Assembly: GCA_003222155.1 (NCBI GenBank) | Contig: QHUU01000066.1 | Span: 1-53,367 of the forward strand | Reading direction: 5' to 3' | Source: Gemmatimonadota bacterium | Lineage (GTDB): Bacteria > Gemmatimonadota > Gemmatimonadetes > Gemmatimonadales > GWC2-71-9 | Length of the DNA stretch: 53,367 nucleotides | Shown here: piece by piece, positions 148-52,327 of the stretch | How positions within the stretch are numbered: position 1 is the first letter of the stretch | Layout of the letters: each line of letters begins with the position of its first letter | Made by a program: the position numbers and the translations under genes | The notes under the pieces: model-generated | Told to the model about the DNA's origin: nothing | Seen by the model: the letters and a program-made list of their open reading frames with translations, nothing else | Database searches by the model: none

Positions 148-233
148 AACGCGGAACTCGGAACGCGGAACGCGGAACAGGCGGGCCGACGCTGGTGCGG
201 CTGTTCCGCGTTCCGAGTTCCGCGTTCCGCGTT
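148..233. repeat. Inverted heptamer-array element between pdhC and lpdA
   Basis: Two 33-bp arms (148-180 and 201-233) are inverted copies built from 7-mers of the form CGGAACN, around a 20-bp spacer. The arms match unit for unit except that one CGGAACT variant unit occupies a different slot in each. The element starts AACGC and ends GCGTT. Its right edge supplies the first base (T on the + strand) of the complement of the pdhC TGA stop, and its left edge lies 15 bp from the lpdA start. A strong hairpin is expected in the transcript. Confidence 0.9.
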
Positions 234-1483
234 CACAGCAGCATCGCCAGCGGGTTCTCCAACATCTGTTTCAGCGTCTGGAGAAACGCCGCCCCGGTGG
301 CTCCGTCGATCACGCGGTGGTCGCAGCTCATCGTGAGGCGCATGCGCCGCCGGGCCGTCACCTGGCCGTCCAGCACCACCGCCTTCTGAACGATCGAGCC
401 CACGGCGATGATCCCGGCCTCCGGCGGATTGATGACCGCGGTGAACTGGTCGATGTCGAACATGCCGAGATTCGAGACGGAGAATGTCGCTCCGGTGTAC
501 TCGTTCGGCTGCAGCCGGCGGTTGCGCGCCTGCTCGGCAAGGTCCTTCGCCTCCCGGCCGATCTCGCCGAGCGACTTCAGGTCCGCGCTCCGGATCACCG
601 GCGTAATGAGCCCGTCCTCCACGGCCACGGCCATGCCGATGTGCACCTCGTTCCAGTAGCGGATGTGGTCCTCCTGGAACCAGGCGTTGCAGGCGCGGTG
701 CGTCCTGAGGGCGAGTGCGGTGGCCTTGATGACGATGTCGTTGAACGAGACCTTCCCCCGGTCGCCGAGCTGCTTGTTCAGGGCATCCCGCGCCTCGGCC
801 GCCCGCTCCATGTCCACTTCGGTCGTGAGAAAGAAATGGGGGATGGGGCCGAGGGATGTCGCGAGCCGCTTGGCGATGGTCTTACGGATCTGCGTGAGGG
901 GGACGTCTTCATACGGAGCCCCGGTGCGCTCGGGATGCGGGACACGGGAAACGGGAAACGGAGCCGCGGCTACGACCGGCGCGCGGTCGAGATCCTTCTT
1001 CACGACGCGGCCACCTGGCCCTGACCCTGCCACGAGCTTCAGGTCTACGCCGGCCTCCTTCGCCATTCGTCGCGCGAGCGGGGAAGCCTTCACCCGCGTG
1101 GCATCCGTCGGAGGGGCGGACGGCAGCGGGGTGACAGCCACCGGCGCCGGCGCAGTCACGGTCGCCACGTTTCCCGTTTCCCGTTTCCCGCTTCCCGCAG
1201 GCGTCGCCGGCGCAGCGGCGGCTGGCGCAGCACCGAGTGCCTCGCCGGGGGAGGCGATCACCGCCACCACGCTCCCCACCGGCACCGTCTGCCCCTCGGC
1301 CACCGCCACCTGCCGCAGCACGCCGTCCGCGCGCGCGACCAGGTCCATCACCGCCTTGTCGGTCTCGACCTCGGCCAGCGTCTCGCCTGCCTTCACCGCG
1401 TCGCCGTCCCGCTTGTGCCACTTGGCCACGCGCCCTTCCTCCATGGTGGGAGAGAGCGCTTCCATATAGACGTTGGTGGCCAC
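233..1483 (-). CDS. pdhC: Pyruvate dehydrogenase E2, dihydrolipoyl acetyltransferase
   Basis: E2 core of the pyruvate dehydrogenase complex, 416 residues. The lipoyl domain is at residues 1-80 with the lipoylated lysine at K43 in ETDKAV. A peripheral subunit-binding domain follows at about 128-166 (ASPLARRMAKEAGVDL...GPGGRVVKKDL). The catalytic acyltransferase domain ends with SCDHRVIDGA, containing the active-site HRxxDG. GTG start, 2 bases after the pdhB stop. Oddity: both linkers around the subunit-binding domain are encoded by 7-bp tandem repeats in opposite orientation (residues about 96-105, GKRETGN; and 174-185, FPVSRVPHP). A branched-chain or 2-oxoglutarate E2 is less likely given the adjacent E1 alpha/beta. 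Confidence 0.95.
   Translation of the reverse strand: MATNVYMEALSPTMEEGRVAKWHKRDGDAVKAGETLAEVETDKAVMDLVARADGVLRQVAVAEGQTVPVGSVVAVIASPGEALGAAPAAAAPATPAGSGKRETGNVATVTAPAPVAVTPLPSAPPTDATRVKASPLARRMAKEAGVDLKLVAGSGPGGRVVKKDLDRAPVVAAAPFPVSRVPHPERTGAPYEDVPLTQIRKTIAKRLATSLGPIPHFFLTTEVDMERAAEARDALNKQLGDRGKVSFNDIVIKATALALRTHRACNAWFQEDHIRYWNEVHIGMAVAVEDGLITPVIRSADLKSLGEIGREAKDLAEQARNRRLQPNEYTGATFSVSNLGMFDIDQFTAVINPPEAGIIAVGSIVQKAVVLDGQVTARRRMRLTMSCDHRVIDGATGAAFLQTLKQMLENPLAMLL
931..963. repeat. Heptamer array in pdhC, C-terminal linker side
   Basis: Four consecutive 7-mers, CGGGATG, CGGGACA, CGGGAAA and CGGGAAA, followed by CGGAG. The array encodes the linker FPVSRVPHP between the subunit-binding and catalytic domains of E2. 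It is in inverted orientation relative to the array at 1169-1196. Confidence 0.9.
1169..1196. repeat. Heptamer array in pdhC, N-terminal linker side
   Basis: Four consecutive 7-mers, GTTTCCC three times then GCTTCCC. This is the reverse complement of the CGGGAAA units at 931-963. It encodes GKRETGN in the linker after the lipoyl domain. The two arrays bracket the subunit-binding domain coding region (about 205 bp). Confidence 0.9.
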
Positions 1484-5014: not shown

Positions 5015-6016
5015 TCACCGTTCCTTCCTCTTGTCGAGCCGTTCTCTCAGGCGGCGCAGCTCCTCGTCGATCCCCGGGTCCGCGCTGAGCATGCCGTCGG
5101 CGATGTCGGCGATCTCTTCGGCCTCTTGCCACTGACGCTCCAACTCTTCCATCTCGGCACGCTCGTCGACCGCCATCTCCAGGGCGAGCCGCCGGTCCGG
5201 GGCGAGGCTCCGCAAGGTGAGCTCGCGGCGGGCGACATCGTGGATCAACTGGTGAGGGCCGCCCGCTCCCTCGACCAGACGCGCTGCGTCCTCGGCGCGC
5301 TGCCGGCCACCGCGCGCCAGGTTGAGGTAGGTCAGGCCGCGCCGCAGCGCAAACTGCGCGTCGCTGCCCGTGAGCATCGTCCCCTCGGCTCCGCAGCTCG
5401 GACACGTGAGCAGCAGCGCCATGCCGTCGCGCGCCGTCGTGGTGACGCGCGCGCGCTCCAGATGGCGCGCGCGCAAGAGCATCACGCTGCCGCACCGCTC
5501 GCAGATCGGCGGCTCGACGAACGCGATCTTGCGGCGTCCGACCATCTCGACGTAGATGCGCTTGACGAGCCGGGGAGTGTTCCACACGAAGACGCCCACG
5601 GAGCCGCCCGCCGCGACGTTGACCGCCACGGCGAGCCCCACCGCCGCGACCGTCATGGGCACGACGAACTTGAGCTGCTCCTGGCGCCGCGCCCGCAGCC
5701 GTTCGCCGTAGCGCCACGCGGCCAGCTCGAGGCGCCGAGGCTTGCCGACGCGTACGAGGTCGTAGCCGTGCCAGCGGATCAGTGCGACCTGGTCGGTCGC
5801 GGCCGCCACCCGGCCGTCGGTCGCGGCCCGCGCCAGCGCCTCGATCCGCTCCAGGCGGTCGTCGAGCGGTGCCAGGTTCCAGCGTGAGCACCTGGGACAG
5901 ATCACCCACAGCCGCCCCTTCCACTCGTCGAACGCGAGCCGCCGTCCCACTCCGAGGCCCGAGGGGCCGCCGTCACCGTCGAGCTTGCCGTTGCAGAAGG
6001 CGCAGGTGCGATACAT
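5015..6016 (-). CDS. Zinc-ribbon membrane protein of unknown function
   Basis: 333 residues from the ATG at 6016. Four CxxC pairs suggest two zinc ribbons: CAFC near residue 5, CPRC near 40, CERC near 170 and CPSC near 205. A hydrophobic segment (VVPMTVAAVGLAVAVNVAAG, about residue 120) predicts one membrane span. The C-terminal third is charged and helical (ERQWQEAEEIADIAD...RLRERLDKRKER), probably a coiled coil. No known family is recognised. The start codon abuts a four-unit heptamer array that also contains the stop of the upstream thiO, leaving no Shine-Dalgarno sequence. Confidence 0.7.
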   Translation of the reverse strand: MYRTCAFCNGKLDGDGGPSGLGVGRRLAFDEWKGRLWVICPRCSRWNLAPLDDRLERIEALARAATDGRVAAATDQVALIRWHGYDLVRVGKPRRLELAAWRYGERLRARRQEQLKFVVPMTVAAVGLAVAVNVAAGGSVGVFVWNTPRLVKRIYVEMVGRRKIAFVEPPICERCGSVMLLRARHLERARVTTTARDGMALLLTCPSCGAEGTMLTGSDAQFALRRGLTYLNLARGGRQRAEDAARLVEGAGGPHQLIHDVARRELTLRSLAPDRRLALEMAVDERAEMEELERQWQEAEEIADIADGMLSADPGIDEELRRLRERLDKRKER

Positions 6017-6044
6017 CGGGACTCGGGACTCGGGACTCGGGACT
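6017..6044. repeat. Heptamer array between thiO and the zinc-ribbon gene
   Basis: Four perfect CGGGACT units, then a degenerate AGGGGCTCGGGG to 6056. The array fills the whole junction: the TAG stop of thiO (complement of 6043-6045) lies at one end and the ATG of the next gene directly abuts the other. Single orientation; no inverted partner seen nearby. Confidence 0.9.
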
Positions 6045-7155
6045 AGGGGCTCGGGGTGACGGTGAAGCGGTCGACACCGAGCGGTCCGATCTCGACGTCG
6101 GTCGCGCCCTTGGTGACGAGATCGGCGATGATCTCTCCTGTGAGCGCCGCGAGGAGGATTCCGTTCCGGCCGTGGCCAGTAGCGTACCAGAGCCGGTCCA
6201 CCTCCGGATCGCGCCCCAGGATCGGCCGGCCGTCGGGAGTGGCAGGTCGGAGGCCGGCCCAGACGCGCTGCACCGGTTGGGTGAGCAACGCAGGGAGCAG
6301 GCGTACCGCGCCGCGGAAGACTTGGGCGAGGCCCTCGTTCGTGACGTGCGGGTCGTATCCGGCGCGCTCCATGGTGCTGCCCAGCACCGCCACGCCGCCG
6401 CGCGCGAGCACGTAGCCCTGGTCGTGATAGAGGATGGAAGGGGGGCAACCGTCGGGCCAGGCGGTGGCCGCCATTTGACCACGCAACGGCTCGACGGGAA
6501 GGGCGCGGGGAAGGCCGCGGATCTGCGGGGACCACACACCCGCCGCGAGCACGGCGTGCTCCACGGTGGTGGTGCCTCCCGCCGCCACCACGCCGGTGAC
6601 CCGGCCCGCCGCCACCTGGATCGACTCCACCGGCTCGGCGTGGAGCGCGGCGCCGAGGCGGCGCGCGTCCGCGAGGCAGGCGCGGGTGAGCGCTTGGGGG
6701 TCGAGCGCCCCGTCCTCCGGCGCGAACAGCGCCCCTTGGCACTCGGGGGCGGCGCCGGGCCAGCGTTCGCGCACGTCGTCCGCCTCCAGCCAATCGCACC
6801 GCAGGCCCGCCTGGCGCTGCCGAGCGACCTCGTCCTTGAGGCGCACGGCGTCCGCCTCGTCGAACGCGACCGCGGCGATCCCGGAGCGCCAGAAGCCGAT
6901 GTCGATGCCGGTGGTCTCCCGCAGCGCCGGGGCGAGGGGCTCGTACAGGTCGCGCGCCCGCACCGACAGGGCGACCAGCGAGTCGTCGGCAGGCTCGATT
7001 TGGGGGGCGAGCATGCCGGCCGAGGCGGGGGACGCGGCGGCCGGGTCGGGGCCCGGCTCGAAGATGGCGACGGCGAGGCCGCGCAGGGCCGCCGCCCGGG
7101 CGCAGGCGGCCCCGATGGCCCCGCCGCCGATGATGGCCACGTCCGCGGTGTTCAC
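6043..7155 (-). CDS. thiO: Glycine oxidase ThiO-type FAD-dependent oxidoreductase
   Basis: 370 residues with an N-terminal GGGAIGAACARAAALRG dinucleotide-binding motif, SPASAGMLAPQ (the DAO-family segment contacting the isoalloxazine), QALTRACLADARRLGA, and the C-terminal GLRPATPDGRPILGRDP...YATGHGRNGILLA typical of ThiO/DAO proteins. ThiO oxidises glycine to iminoglycine for the thiamine thiazole ring. No other thi genes are present, so a different amine substrate is possible. GTG start at 7155; the gene ends inside a heptamer array. Confidence 0.82.
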   Translation of the reverse strand: MNTADVAIIGGGAIGAACARAAALRGLAVAIFEPGPDPAAASPASAGMLAPQIEPADDSLVALSVRARDLYEPLAPALRETTGIDIGFWRSGIAAVAFDEADAVRLKDEVARQRQAGLRCDWLEADDVRERWPGAAPECQGALFAPEDGALDPQALTRACLADARRLGAALHAEPVESIQVAAGRVTGVVAAGGTTTVEHAVLAAGVWSPQIRGLPRALPVEPLRGQMAATAWPDGCPPSILYHDQGYVLARGGVAVLGSTMERAGYDPHVTNEGLAQVFRGAVRLLPALLTQPVQRVWAGLRPATPDGRPILGRDPEVDRLWYATGHGRNGILLAALTGEIIADLVTKGATDVEIGPLGVDRFTVTPSP

Positions 7156-36221: not shown

Positions 36222-36223
36222 CG

Positions 36224-36303
36224 AACGCGGAACGCGGAAGTCGGAACGCGGAACAGAGCGGGGAATGCACCCGTTCCGCGTTCCGCGTTCCGCGTTCCGC
36301 GTT
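36224..36303. repeat. Inverted heptamer-array element between tdk and coaE
   Basis: 80 bp from AACGC to GCGTT. The left arm is made of CGGAACG, CGGAAGT, CGGAACG and CGGAACA units, with a spacer of about 15 bp and a right arm of four inverted CGTTCCG units. The right end supplies the first base of the complement of the tdk TGA stop, and the left end is 2 bp from the coaE ATG. It thus occupies the entire junction between the two genes. Confidence 0.9.
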
Positions 36304-36908
36304 CAGAGCAGCGCCGTCTGATCCTCATCCGCCCTCGGCACCTTGTGGCAATGCCGGCATCTCGCCTCGTACGACTCCCGTCCCCCCACCATGATCGTGG
36401 GACTTTCCCATAGCGCGGGCTTGCCGTTGACGAGGCGCTGGTTCCGGCTGGCCGGGCCTCCGCACACCACACAGATCGCCTGCAGCTTGTCGACGATCTC
36501 GGCGATCGCCAGGAGCGTGGGCATCGGTCCGAAGGGCAGGCCGCGGAAATCCATATCGATGCCCGCGAGCACGACGCGGACGCCCCGGTTCGCCAGGTCG
36601 TTCGCGGCGGCCACGATCGCGTCGTTCAGAAACTGCACTTCGTCCACCGCCACCACCTCGGTGTCGGGTCGGAGCGCGCGGATCACCGCCTCGGCCGAGT
36701 CCACCGGCTCGGCTTCCACCAGCCCGCCGTCGTGCGTGGTCACCGTGTACAGGCCGGCGTAGCGGGCGTCGAGGTGCGACTTGAAGACCTGGACGCGCTT
36801 CCTGGCGATCACCGCACGCCGCACCCGGCGCACCAGCTCCTCGCTCTTTCCTGAAAACATCACGCCGGCAATCACTTCGATCCACCCAGGGCGCGTGCCG
36901 TGGAACAT
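36303..36908 (-). CDS. tdk: Thymidine kinase (type II)
   Basis: 201 residues. Walker A is GVMFSGKSEEL, the Mg-binding motif is VVAVDEVQFL, the lasso-like segment is GLPFGPMPTLLAIAEIVDKL, and the structural zinc cysteines are in ICVVCGGPASRNQR and ARCRHCHK. It salvages thymidine to dTMP. ATG at 36908 with AAGGAC just upstream. First gene of the long minus-strand run and divergent from HU. Confidence 0.95.
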   Translation of the reverse strand: MFHGTRPGWIEVIAGVMFSGKSEELVRRVRRAVIARKRVQVFKSHLDARYAGLYTVTTHDGGLVEAEPVDSAEAVIRALRPDTEVVAVDEVQFLNDAIVAAANDLANRGVRVVLAGIDMDFRGLPFGPMPTLLAIAEIVDKLQAICVVCGGPASRNQRLVNGKPALWESPTIMVGGRESYEARCRHCHKVPRADEDQTALL

Positions 36909-41507: not shown

Positions 41508-41522
41508 CGACCTGCCGCTCAA

Positions 41523-41542
41523 CCCCGGGCTTGCGCCCGGGG
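41523..41542. repeat. CCCCGGGC hairpin, copy 4
   Basis: Identical stem and TTGC loop to copy 1, followed by TCAG. Between the convergent aminotransferase and M24 peptidase genes, again a spot where a bidirectional terminator would fit. Confidence 0.8.
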
Positions 41543-41567
41543 TCAGTCGGGCTGTGCTGGGTCTGAC

Positions 41568-42803
41568 CTAGAGTTTGGAAGCCCGCTGGCTCAGCACCTC
41601 GACTCCGCTCGCCGTCATCACGCAATCATCTTCTATGCGGACTCCGAACTTCCCGAGCTGATAGATCCCCGGCTCGTCGGTAAACACCATGCCGGGCTCG
41701 AGGCCCAGCGCGTTGCCCTCGACGAGATAGGGCGGCTCGTGTCCGTCCATCCCGAGTCCGTGTCCCAGGCGGTGAGTGAAGAACGGGCCGTAGCCCGCAG
41801 CCGCGATCACCTTGCGGGCGGCGCGATCCATGTCCTGGCACGGCGTGCCGGGTCGTCCCAACTCCATCGCGGCGCTTTGGGCGTCGTGCACCACATTGAA
41901 CACCTTACGGAACTCGGCCGCCGGACTGTCGCCGAACCAGGCGGTGCGGGTGATGTCCGACTCGTAGCCGCGCACCCGGCAGCCGCAATCGATCAGCACC
42001 ACGGTCTCACGCTCGAGCGCCGCCGCGGCGGGGCCACCGTGAGGCAGCGCGCTGGACGGCCCGAACTGCACCAGCCCGCCGCCTTCGGCGCCGCGTTGCT
42101 GCATCTCGCGCGACAGGAGCCGCGCCACGTCGCGCTCCGTCATCCCCACGGCGAGCTGCGCGAACGTCGCCGTCATCGCCGCCTGCGTGATCTCGATCGC
42201 GCGGCGGATCAGGGCGATTTCCTCGGGGGCCTTCACGATGCGGAGCCGCTCGGTCACCGGTGCCGCGTCCACGAACTTCCAGCCGGAGAGCGCCGCCGCG
42301 AGCCGCAGCGACGTCTGGTATCCGGTGGACGACTCGAGCGCAATCGTGCCCGCACGCGGCGCCAGCCGGCGGACGGTGTCGCGCACCAGGGCGTACGGAT
42401 CGCCCTCCTCCTCCCATCCGCGCGCATCCGCAATGACGCCGTGGCGCTTGATCCGTTCGACCTCGAAGGAAGGACACACCACGGCCGGGCCGCCTCGGAG
42501 CGGGACGATCAGCGCGATGAGGCGCTCGCTGCGCCCGGGATTGTAGCCGGTGAGATACTCGTAGTTGGTGCTCGGCGTGGCGATGAGGCAATCGAGCTTG
42601 CGCGCCTCGAGCTCGGCCCGCGCGCGGTCGAGGCGGCGGGCGAAGACTTCCGGTGGCAAGGAGGGCTCCTGCGAGGGGGTAACGCGGAACGCGGAACGCG
42701 GAACGCGGAACGAGACGCTCGGACGCCTGTTCCGCGTTCCGACTTCCGACTTCCGCGTTGCCAGCACCGCCCCTGCTACCGCAAGAAACTCCCGCCGCTC
42801 CAT
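41568..42803 (-). CDS. Tat-exported M24 metallopeptidase (Xaa-Pro aminopeptidase type)
   Basis: 411 residues. The N-terminus MERREFLAVAGAVLA fits a twin-arginine signal. Metal ligands of the pita-bread fold are visible: IDCGCRVRGYESDITRTAW (two Asp), HRLGHGLGMDGHEPP (His), FTDEPGIYQ and GVRIEDDCVM (Glu). A creatinase N-terminal domain precedes it. It would trim N-terminal residues next to proline outside the cytoplasm. Residues 15-41 are encoded by a palindromic heptamer element lying in frame right after the signal region, giving an Arg/Ser/Val-rich insert (GTRNRRPSVSFRVPRSAFRV). Confidence 0.9.
   Translation of the reverse strand: MERREFLAVAGAVLATRKSEVGTRNRRPSVSFRVPRSAFRVTPSQEPSLPPEVFARRLDRARAELEARKLDCLIATPSTNYEYLTGYNPGRSERLIALIVPLRGGPAVVCPSFEVERIKRHGVIADARGWEEEGDPYALVRDTVRRLAPRAGTIALESSTGYQTSLRLAAALSGWKFVDAAPVTERLRIVKAPEEIALIRRAIEITQAAMTATFAQLAVGMTERDVARLLSREMQQRGAEGGGLVQFGPSSALPHGGPAAAALERETVVLIDCGCRVRGYESDITRTAWFGDSPAAEFRKVFNVVHDAQSAAMELGRPGTPCQDMDRAARKVIAAAGYGPFFTHRLGHGLGMDGHEPPYLVEGNALGLEPGMVFTDEPGIYQLGKFGVRIEDDCVMTASGVEVLSQRASKL
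42681..42759. repeat. Inverted heptamer-array element inside the M24 peptidase gene
   Basis: 79 bp from AACGC to GCGTT. The left arm has four CGGAACG units, with a spacer of about 15 bp; the right arm is four inverted units (CGTTCCG, two ACTTCCG-type, GCGTT). It has the same ends as the elements at 148, 36224 and 52206. It is read through in frame with no stop codon. Confidence 0.92.
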
Positions 42804-42868: not shown

Positions 42869-43390
42869 TTGTCGACGCACTTCGAAGCCCGAATCGAGCC
42901 GCTCGACGGCAAGCTTCCCAAGGTCACCTATCACTGGGATCCCGAGACCGACATCCTCTCCGTCGCGTGCAAGGGGACGGGGAAGGCCACGAGTTTCAAC
43001 GGCACCGTGGATCTCGAGGGCAACGACGGCTCGTTCGTGGTGATCGACGTGGCCAGCGGGTGCTTGCGAGGCGTGGACGTGGTCACCTGGCCGGACGACA
43101 TCCGCACCCGCGAGCAGCTCGCAGCCCCCGCCCCGGCCAAGGACGCGCGCGTCGTGTTTCCCCCCCGCAAAGCGCAACCCGCGGTGGCGGCCGTCGAGGT
43201 CGACACGCCGCTCACCGTGGAGAAAAACCAGGCCGAATCGGTGCTGCACATCCGGGTGGGGCGCCAGCGGCCCGCCACCGTGGTGCGCGTGGCGGACCGC
43301 CTGCTCGTCGAAGTCGACAAAAGCTCGCGACTCGCGGGGCTCTGGTTCCTCGACGTGCCGCCGTTTCCGAATGTCGAAGCGACCGCCTAG
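42869..43390 (+). CDS. Protein of unknown function
   Basis: 173 residues from the TTG at 42869 (GGAAGG lies 5-10 bases upstream); a GTG at 42824 would add 15 residues but overlaps the likely promoter. The first half (RIEPLDGKLPKVTYHWDPETDILSVAC, GTVDLEGNDGSFVVIDVASGCLRGVDVVTWP) faintly recalls DUF2283-like folds. The second half (VEVDTPLTVEKNQAESVLHIRVG, VVRVADRLLVEVDKSSRLAGLWFLDVP) looks like a related second beta domain. It is followed after 4 bp by the left array of the four-helix-bundle element. Confidence 0.62.
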   Translation: MSTHFEARIEPLDGKLPKVTYHWDPETDILSVACKGTGKATSFNGTVDLEGNDGSFVVIDVASGCLRGVDVVTWPDDIRTREQLAAPAPAKDARVVFPPRKAQPAVAAVEVDTPLTVEKNQAESVLHIRVGRQRPATVVRVADRLLVEVDKSSRLAGLWFLDVPPFPNVEATA

Positions 43391-43394
43391 CAGC

Positions 43395-43440
43395 GGAGGT
43401 TAGGGGAGGTTGGGGAGGTTGTGGAGGTTGGGGGAGGTTG
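43395..43440. repeat. Left tandem array of the four-helix-bundle element
   Basis: Five copies of a 9-10 bp unit GGAGGTTGG (variants GGAGGTTAG and GGAGGTTGT). It starts 4 bp after the preceding stop codon. The inverted counterpart is at 43868-43908. Confidence 0.9.
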
Positions 43441-43512
43441 ATCGCGGTGTAACGGCCCTCCGTGCGCTAGAATGGTTCCAGCTTCCCCGCCGCGCCGCGT
43501 ACCGTGGAGCGC

Positions 43513-43866
43513 ATGTCGCGGTACGAACGGCTTCACGCCTGGCGGGAATGCCACGAGCTCGCCTTGGCGGTTTACCGGGTCACGAAGCAGTTCCCCAATG
43601 ACGAGCGTTACGGGCTGACCTCGCAACTCCGGCGCGCCGCGTTCTCTGCCGCGGTCAATATCGTCGAGGGATCTGCACGGCGCAGCACCAAAGAATTCCG
43701 CCGGTTCCTCGATATTTCCCTCTCATCGCTGAGCGAGGTCGGATATGCGTTGCGGTTCGCTTGGGAAGCGGGCCTGCTGACCGACGACGATTGGTCCGCC
43801 CTCAACGATCGCCAGAGCCGCGCCCGCTTTCTCACGTGGCAACTGTACCGAGCCCTAGGTCGGTGA
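43513..43866 (+). CDS. Four-helix-bundle protein (S23/IVS family)
   Basis: 117 residues from the ATG at 43513 (GGAG nearby; a GTG nine bases earlier is less likely). It matches the family of four-helix-bundle proteins first seen in 23S rRNA intervening sequences: YERLHAWRECHELALAVYRVT, FPNDERYGLTSQLRRAAFSAAVNIVEGSAR, then EFRRFLDISLSSLSEVGYALRFA. Related small proteins include Avd of diversity-generating retroelements, which binds nucleic acid. No reverse transcriptase is present. Flanking inverted arrays suggest it belongs to a discrete element. Confidence 0.9.
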   Translation: MSRYERLHAWRECHELALAVYRVTKQFPNDERYGLTSQLRRAAFSAAVNIVEGSARRSTKEFRRFLDISLSSLSEVGYALRFAWEAGLLTDDDWSALNDRQSRARFLTWQLYRALGR

Positions 43867-43867
43867 C

Positions 43868-43908
43868 CACCTCCGCCAGCCTCCCAAACCTCCCCCAACC
43901 TCCTCAAC
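43868..43908. repeat. Right tandem array of the four-helix-bundle element
   Basis: About four units of CCAACCTCC type, the reverse complement of the left array, more degenerate (variants CCAGCCTCC and CAAACCTCC). It ends 17 bp before the UbiG-like start codon. Confidence 0.85.
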
Positions 43909-43925: not shown

Positions 43926-44660
43926 ATGTCCGACCAACTCCCCCGCCTCGGCGGCCTCCCCGAGGCCGAGAAGTACGAGCGTCTGGTCGAGCGCGTACCG
44001 GGGCTGTGGTGGAGCGACGCCGGACCGTTCGCGGGACTGCACGAGTTGAACGTGGTTCGCGTGGAGTACTTCCGCGCCGTGTTCAACGGGTTCGGCGGCA
44101 AGCGGGTGCTCGACGTGGGGTGTGGCGGCGGCATCCTGGCCGAAGCCCTCGCGACCGAAGGCGCGCGAGTGACCGGCATCGATCCGTCGGAGCGCTCCCT
44201 CACAGCGGCGCGCGACCATGCGCAGCGCGCCGGCTTGGCGATCGAATACCGGCCGGGCACGGCCGAAAACCTCAAAGCGGCAGGGCTCGAGGGGTCGTAC
44301 GACCTCGTGTTCGCGGTGGACGTGCTCGAGCACGTGGACGATCTCGATCGCACCCTCGCCGGGGTGGCGGCCGTCCTCGCGCCGGGCGGTGGGCTCGGGT
44401 TCCTCACCCATAACCGCACCATCGCCGGCTTCCTGCAGGTCGTGTGGCACGAGGAATACGTGCAGCACACGATGCCGGAAGGCTTCCACGACTTCCAGCG
44501 CTTCATCACGCCCGCCGAGCTGACGGAAAAGCTCGCGCGCAACGACATGGTCGTACAGGAAATGAAAGGGATCGCGCCGGCCGGTGACGGCACCGGCCGC
44601 CGCATCCTGACCGACGATCTGAGCATCACGTATCTCGGGTGGGCGCTCCGGACTCGATGA
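43926..44660 (+). CDS. UbiG-like SAM-dependent O-methyltransferase
   Basis: 244 residues. Motif I is RVLDVGCGGGILAEALA, motif post-I is VTGIDPSE, and motif II is YDLVFAVDVLEHVDD. VVWHEEYVQHTMPEGFHDFQRFITPAEL fits the UbiG branch, which methylates hydroxyls of ubiquinone intermediates. If the organism uses only menaquinone, another phenolic substrate is likely. The TGA overlaps the ATG of the NurA-like gene, which is unexpected for a metabolic enzyme next to a DNA-repair operon. Confidence 0.82.
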   Translation: MSDQLPRLGGLPEAEKYERLVERVPGLWWSDAGPFAGLHELNVVRVEYFRAVFNGFGGKRVLDVGCGGGILAEALATEGARVTGIDPSERSLTAARDHAQRAGLAIEYRPGTAENLKAAGLEGSYDLVFAVDVLEHVDDLDRTLAGVAAVLAPGGGLGFLTHNRTIAGFLQVVWHEEYVQHTMPEGFHDFQRFITPAELTEKLARNDMVVQEMKGIAPAGDGTGRRILTDDLSITYLGWALRTR

Positions 44661-51255: not shown

Positions 51256-52204
51256 GCGCCAGGTCTACGGGCCGGAGCCCGCCGGGGAGCGGGACACCGA
51301 CGCGCTGAACCGGGTGTTCGCGGACGCGTTCACCGACCGTTACCGCCGCGACGGCCTCGTCGGCGTGCGCGTGCCCCATCTGAATCCGCAGGTGTGGCGG
51401 TACGCGCTGCTCGACGCGGGCGCGGGCGCCATGTTGTGGCGCGACGAGGCGGGGCACGTGGTGGCCTTCAATATCGCGCACCGCTCGGGCACGGAGGGAT
51501 GGATGGGCCCGCTCGCGGTGCGCCCCGACCGCCAGGGGGCGGGGGTCGGCAAGGCGATCGTCCGGGCGGCGGTGGACTGGCTCATCGAGCAGGGCGTCGC
51601 GACGCTGGGGTTGGAGACCATGCCGCGCACCGTCGAGAATATCGGCTTTTACGCCCGGCTCGGGTTCGCGCCGGGTCACCTCACGGTCACGCTGACGAAC
51701 GACATCGCGACCCGCGGCCACGCTGCTCCGGCGCTCCTGTCGCAGCGCAAGGGCGACGCGGGCGGCGCGGCGCTCGCCGCCGCCCGTCGCCTCGTCGGCA
51801 CCCTTTCGCCGGGCTACGACTTCACGCGCGAGATCACGCTCACGGCGGAGCTGGGGCTCGGCGACACGTCGCTGGTGGACGGCGACGACGGGCTGGCGGC
51901 GGTCGTGCTGTGGCACTCGACTCCCCTCGCGGAAGGCCGCCCCAAGGACGAAGTGCGGGTGCTCAAGCTCGCGGCGCGCGACGACCGCGCTTTCGACGCG
52001 TGCATCGCGGCGACCGAGGCCGCAGCCGCGCGCGCGGGCATCCGGCGCGTCGCCGTACGCTGCCAGACGCGCTTCGAAGACACCTTCCGCCGGCTGGTCG
52101 CCCGCGGCTATCGCGTCCGCTGGACCGACCTCCGGATGACCTACGAGGGCTACGGCGAGCCGCCCCCGCGGCGCGGCGTGCTGTTCTCGAATTGGGAGAT
52201 CTAG
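51236..52204 (+). CDS. Double-GNAT acetyltransferase
   Basis: 322 residues; the ATG lies 20 bp inside the end of sbcC with GGGAG upstream. The first GNAT domain has the acetyl-CoA loop in WMGPLAVRPDRQGAGVGKAIVRAAVDWL and the following ENIGFYARLGF. A second, weaker GNAT-like half (ITLTAELGLGDTSLVDGDDGLAAVVLW to RLVARGYRVRWTDLRM) lacks an obvious P-loop and may be structural or bind substrate. Acceptor unknown. Its stop codon shares its G with the first base of the adjoining repeat array. Confidence 0.82.
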   Translation: MRAWLPERQVYGPEPAGERDTDALNRVFADAFTDRYRRDGLVGVRVPHLNPQVWRYALLDAGAGAMLWRDEAGHVVAFNIAHRSGTEGWMGPLAVRPDRQGAGVGKAIVRAAVDWLIEQGVATLGLETMPRTVENIGFYARLGFAPGHLTVTLTNDIATRGHAAPALLSQRKGDAGGAALAAARRLVGTLSPGYDFTREITLTAELGLGDTSLVDGDDGLAAVVLWHSTPLAEGRPKDEVRVLKLAARDDRAFDACIAATEAAAARAGIRRVAVRCQTRFEDTFRRLVARGYRVRWTDLRMTYEGYGEPPPRRGVLFSNWEI

Positions 52205-52205
52205 G

Positions 52206-52324
52206 AACGCGGAACGCGGAAGTCGGAACTCGGAACTGAAAGGGCAGGTTCGATCCCAGATGCCGGCGCTCTGTCTCGACCGTCGCTCGCTCTGTTCCGC
52301 GTTCCGCGTTTCGCGTTCCGCGTT
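52206..52324. repeat. Inverted heptamer-array element between the GNAT and transporter genes
   Basis: 119 bp from AACGC to GCGTT. The left arm (to 52238) has CGGAACG, CGGAAGT, CGGAACT and CGGAACT units. The spacer is about 54 bp with no gene, and the right arm from 52293 has inverted CGTTCCG units including one CGTTTCG. It spans the whole junction: stop codon at one end, and 3 bp before the next ATG at the other. Confidence 0.9.
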
Positions 52325-52327
52325 CGT

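Follow-up and report, generated by a model that had tools for sequence, protein, structure and literature searches.

S23 four-helix-bundle genes between inverted short tandem arrays look like protein-coding members of a hitherto undescribed mobile hairpin family

Introduction

Why does a gene for a small four-helix-bundle protein of the S23/IVP type lie between inverted tandem arrays, in a gap between two protein genes? To our knowledge, S23/IVP proteins are widespread, are most familiar from insertions in rRNA and have been without a known function for about thirty years. Bacterial heptamer arrays are, as far as we know, hitherto unexplained. The locus is situated in a Gemmatimonadota contig of 53,367 nucleotides (GCA_003222155.1, QHUU01000066.1), which was analysed as a whole and is called the window here. 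The window genome is G000; G001 is its sister. The initial annotation had proposed a new mobile element outside rRNA. Assemblies were used throughout, many of them MAGs, and related genomes are not independent observations.

Results

The cassette in the window consists of four parts.

43395..43440, forward strand: left array of five G-rich GGAGGTT(NGG) units, spacing 9-10, TRF score 67-69
43441..43512, forward strand: leader from the array to the start codon, including TAGAATGGTT
43513..43866, forward strand: S23/IVP four-helix-bundle gene of 117 codons, ATG at 43513, stop at 43866
43869..43908, reverse strand: right array, inverse copies of the left units, TRF score 42

The S23 ORF matched PF05635 (E 9.5e-30, 103.4 bits, above the curated cut-off of 33.8) and TIGR02436 'four helix bundle protein' (7e-28, 97 bits, above the cut-off of 24). 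A GTG at 43504 is a possible alternative start. Both arrays were detected independently with two tools. The left flank aligned to the reverse-complemented right flank with a score of 43, and about 2% of mismatched pairs reach 32. By these array, domain and flank results, the S23 gene between inverted arrays is real. An element of 514 bp with defined ends was not borne out: the arrays nearly fill the intergenic gap on both sides, with an uncharacterised upstream gene ending at 43390 and a methyltransferase gene beginning at 43927. The site is a gap between protein genes and not a 23S rRNA gene. In the predicted RNA fold, the arrays form a basal stem enclosing the S23 gene (z = -3.0). The GGAGGTT unit of the left array is also present at the orthologous site in G001, G002 and G007; relatives at this locus have a common array unit and not unrelated flanks.

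The dN/dS values were 0.07-0.17 between orthologs of the window gene and 0.03-0.24 over the compared S23 genes. The S23 protein is therefore under purifying selection. We know of no catalytic activity of S23, and of no nuclease. The window protein is homologous to XCC0516, the nearest solved structure (2GSC, E 5e-36), which is a pentamer of four-helix bundles (PMC4990558). Matches between S23 and Avd were weak and below cut-off (NF033474, phrog_3206); this similarity would fit a nucleic-acid-binding role. Membership in an anti-phage defence system was rejected, as PADLOC models matched 0 families. The hexamer AATGGT occurred in 13 of 112 S23 leaders and in none of 113 background segments. An AAAYGATG-type motif recurs about 53 nt upstream of the domain start in part of the leaders (26/112 versus 5/113 in the background). 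It is not present in the window copy and is possibly a promoter or an RNA signal.

Bracketing by arrays was seen well beyond the window locus. The window genome has eight S23 loci; seven of these show terminal inverted repeats or arrays by eye, each with a different unit. For a systematic count, the left flank of each gene (400 bp) was aligned to its reverse-complemented right flank (400 bp). A score of at least 32 defined a bracketed gene, and left flanks paired with right flanks of other loci were the control. In the home order, 98 of 111 S23 genes were bracketed. Mismatched pairs reached the threshold in 2.0% (other genomes) and 2.4% (same genome), and decoy segments within the same loci in 3.6%. 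A wide sample with one genome per species, searched with a subset of the S23 set as query, had 61 bracketed genes among 71 testable loci in about 15 phyla (control 2.5%). The order containing Xanthomonadales contributed 25 of 27 (control 2.6%). Pooled over the three samples, 184 of 209 S23 genes (88%) lie between inverted short tandem arrays, with controls at 2-3.6%. Most family members elsewhere thus have inverted arrays, and the suspected family of repeat-bounded elements on the plan of the rRNA intervening sequences (IVSs) is well supported and far wider than guessed.

An explanation of the array-less exceptions as rRNA copies was rejected; four such loci had no Rfam match. No prior description of arrays around S23 genes was found in a search of open-access full text. 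FLSHclust mentions the 23S rRNA IVP solely as a neighbour of CRISPR adaptation. Two loci have unusual arms. The S23 arms of L326 (order of G061) alternate CTGGGGAACG with short palindromes (GCGCGC..GCGCGC) and are the longest of the set. The left side of the S23 element L018 in G001 is itself a complete small inverted-array hairpin.

The array units are local, and the two arms of a locus match. Among single periods, 7 is the most frequent in the home-order set, and periods of 8-14 are present too. Left arms are G-rich on the strand of the gene in 86%. A fixed tag sequence common to the arrays of different loci was not found. Mean arm identity was 0.90 within a locus, a figure biased upward by the selection of arms for their within-locus match, versus 0.51 for same-side arms of orthologs. 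In 56 of 58 pairs, identity was higher within the locus than between orthologs. Both arms of the guaA locus repeat CGACGCCA in G000 and G001 and CGACGCTA in G007. At the L005 and L006 sites, the S23 gene is kept between G000 and G001 and the units are changed. Such matched change in two arms could be explained by slippage together with template switching between the hairpin arms.

The window locus also carries signs of exchange. In the flanks, informative sites group G000 with G001 (69:5:5 and 107:1:1). In the S23 ORF, they group G000 with G002 (19:5:3; Fisher 2e-17 versus the flanks). The grouping was concordant throughout the mnmG locus, which served as control. Flanks and ORF conflict, and the switch occurs at the arrays; therefore, the cassette between the arrays was exchanged between lineages. 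At the same site, the S23 gene is broken in G005 and absent from G008, which keeps a remnant of the left array. Three orthologous loci (L037, L094 and L087) have the S23 gene inverted with respect to both flanks and its protein clade unchanged. In G053, G039 and G060, S23 paralogs at different sites fall into lineage-specific clades. Neither at the window locus nor at the other sites compared, where the empty sites are diverged, could a target-site duplication be defined, and no fresh or clean recent insertion was found among them.

Hairpins without the gene are present in the window as well. The following are unstranded.

148..234: ORF-less GGAACGC inverted array hairpin; G001 has GGATTGC in the orthologous position
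36223..36304: ORF-less GGAACGC hairpin that takes up the gap between two genes; the G001 ortholog has GGGAAGC
41508..41568: terminator-like hairpin with neither S23 gene nor array; the close relative G001 has the S23 element L066b there, unit GGGAAG
42681..42759: ORF-less inverted heptamer hairpin, GGAACGC; GGATTGC in G001, GGAACGC in G002, GGACGG-type in G007
52204..52325: ORF-less GGAACGC hairpin immediately past a stop codon; the G001 ortholog has GGATTGC

The hairpin at 42681-42759 lies in frame in the coding N-terminus of an M24 peptidase ORF (41568-42803, reverse strand), past a signal-like start. Dispersed copies were counted by pattern search. Double GGAACGC units numbered about 120 in G000 versus six in G001, whose dominant dispersed units are GGATTGC and GGAATGC. 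All alignable G001 counterparts of G000 hairpin sites have repeat units. These form an inverted array wherever the case is clear, and at most sites the unit is a different one (GGATTGC, GGGAAGC, CGGGAAA or AATG-type). G001 has no S23 gene at the rpmA and L007 sites, where the hairpin alone is present. From these orthologous sites it follows that a hairpin site outlasts its sequence and its gene. Locus-specific units, unit turnover and gene-free hairpins, several of them in the window, are additions to the initial annotation.

Other arrays of the window were recorded. A CGGGAAA-type array at 938-961 and its inverse (CGTTTCC) at 1168-1197 lie about 200 bp apart inside a long ORF (233-1483, reverse strand); the unit matches CGGGAAA arms of S23 genes elsewhere in the genus. 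A one-sided TCGGGAC heptamer array at 6016-6055 resembles the unit of L018.

Dispersed units tend to match the arms of resident S23 genes. The dispersed GGAACGC of G000 is the arm unit of L006. In G001, GGATTGC and GGAATGC are the arm units of the L006 ortholog, GGGAAGC that of L066b and CGGGAAA that of L068. GGGAWTC arms were first found at four S23 loci of the order containing Xanthomonadales, and the genomes of these loci have 83-283 sites with two adjacent units. At least 20 such sites were present in one of 22 genomes with other S23 arms. The forward prediction was that GGGAWTC arms would occur in three further high-count genomes and be absent from low-count genomes; all cases held. In total, the unit was abundant in 7/7 genomes with GGGAWTC arms versus 1/35 of the others (Fisher 3e-7, uncorrected for kinship). 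In the home order, 400 kb from four S23-rich genomes contained five array hairpins, although two of the four genomes had none, and 400 kb from four S23-less genomes contained none (p 0.03).

Discussion

The feature in the window is probably one copy of a family of elements in which inverted short tandem arrays form a long hairpin, with the S23 gene in the loop, and which has gene-free relatives. The S23 gene looks like the protein-coding member of an undescribed mobile hairpin family. The idea of a new mobile element is thus partly supported: well for the repeat-bounded family, and as a suggestion for movement by the S23 protein or an outside enzyme and for excision of the transcript.

Several observations count against this reading of a hairpin family with a coding member. 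G075 has 112 dispersed GGGAWTC sites, yet its S23 gene has GGGGACC. Dispersed units are present in G152, G166 and G171, in which S23 was not detected. The sampled dispersed units of G002 and G007 are unlike the arms of their few sampled S23 genes. In the S23-rich genomes G053 and G039, the 100 kb taken from each contained no array hairpin.

We infer that the S23 protein drives the spread of the hairpins, and likewise the chemistry of that spread. An S23 ring, a pentamer in the homolog 2GSC, would bind the hairpin via its structure and not its sequence. Binding may favour copying or exchange of the hairpin by replication and repair enzymes of the host. At the RNA level, RNase III may cleave the stem formed by the arrays, as it does in rRNA IVSs, and such cleavage would make insertions tolerable. 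Unit changes could move along an array by replication slippage and pass from arm to arm by template switching inside the hairpin. It is conceivable, if short of probable, that S23 is the factor acting in trans for a transposase-free class of mobile hairpins that spans the bacteria and has continually rewritten arrays; rRNA IVSs and the xanthomonad heptamer arrays would be local forms of it.

The main rival makes S23 a passenger: hairpins arise and spread by replication errors or another process of the host, and S23 lodges in their harmless loops with no part in the spread. Orthologous hairpins persist with and without S23, a few genomes have dispersed units without a detected S23 gene, and heptamer arrays were described in Xanthomonas with no mention of a protein partner (PMC4692102). 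Even so, a mere passenger is rather unlikely. It does not alone explain that S23 arms predict the genome-wide unit (7/7 versus 1/35), and it sits poorly with array hairpins being found in the S23-rich and not in the S23-less 400 kb. Purifying selection on S23 demands some function. That S23 is a plain intergenic gene whose neighbouring terminator or attenuator hairpins turned repetitive by slippage is already disfavoured and improbable. Some arrays do adjoin stop codons, one of them followed by CTTTT (L004), and G000 has a simple terminator-like hairpin where G001 carries L066b. However, matched arms bracket the gene in 88% of cases against 3.6% for decoy segments from these loci, a T run is missing from most hairpins, one is inside a coding N-terminus (42681-42759), and the S23 cassette was exchanged between lineages.

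Enzymes acting in trans have also to be considered. That a Y1 transposase of the RAYT/IS200 type moves the hairpins is suggested by the REPIN-like plan and by PF01797 in some relatives. The domain is absent from the S23-rich genomes G002, G008, G039, G053 and G060, and arrays of different loci share no fixed tag, which makes this very improbable. It would take a still greater surprise for a reverse transcriptase to write the arrays from RNA with S23 as an Avd-like partner, in the manner of diversity-generating retroelements or telomerase. S23 resembles Avd, and the units are G-rich, telomere-like and rewritten genome-wide; but no match to RVT_1 (PF00078) was obtained in the genus (ten genomes, with G000 and G001 among them) or in the S23-rich G053, G060 and G039, which leaves a diverged or overlooked enzyme as a slight chance. 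With reverse transcriptase absent from the genus genomes and Y1 from several S23-rich genomes, neither is required.

The preferred link between S23 genes and array hairpins joins two puzzles, S23/IVP proteins and bacterial heptamer arrays, and opens both to experiments in laboratory strains. It suggests mobile elements that lack a recognisable transposase and whose ends are recognised by structure rather than sequence. It also offers a natural example of concerted, genome-wide rewriting of short repeats.

Among known systems, diversity-generating retroelements share a related four-helix-bundle protein, Avd, by below-cut-off matches, but no reverse transcriptase was found in the ten genomes of the genus. 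MITEs are likewise short inverted-repeat elements with coding and non-coding forms; here, no target duplication was found, there is no transposase and the ends are not fixed in sequence. In Xanthomonas, Rehm et al. described GGGAATC heptamer arrays, many of them in inverted pairs at conserved intergenic positions (PMC4692102). S23 arms of seven genomes from the order containing Xanthomonadales bear the same unit, whereas that paper reports no S23 gene, unit turnover or mobility.

The 23S rRNA IVSs of the Coxiella and Leptospira type also have the S23 ORF in the loop of a stem-forming inverted repeat. The Coxiella IVS has tandem GACAGAT heptamers just upstream of the S23 ORF, and an RNase III site at the first repeat (PMC4990558). 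These heptamers strengthen the link with the rRNA IVSs. Unlike rRNA IVSs, the window copy and the other loci with neighbours read sit between protein genes, each arm is an array whose unit is specific to the locus, and many ORF-less hairpins share that unit; the stem here is a predicted one. REPINs and RAYTs (PMC3116915) are similar in that ORF-less dispersed hairpins match the repeats beside a resident single-domain gene, with G075, G002 and G007 as exceptions here. They differ in the resident gene, which is PF05635 here and not a Y1 tyrosine transposase, and in their fixed tag; the units described here vary by locus and species and are rewritten in place. We read the S23 gene as standing to the ORF-less hairpins as RAYT stands to REPINs, with the anatomy of an rRNA IVS and without a transposase.
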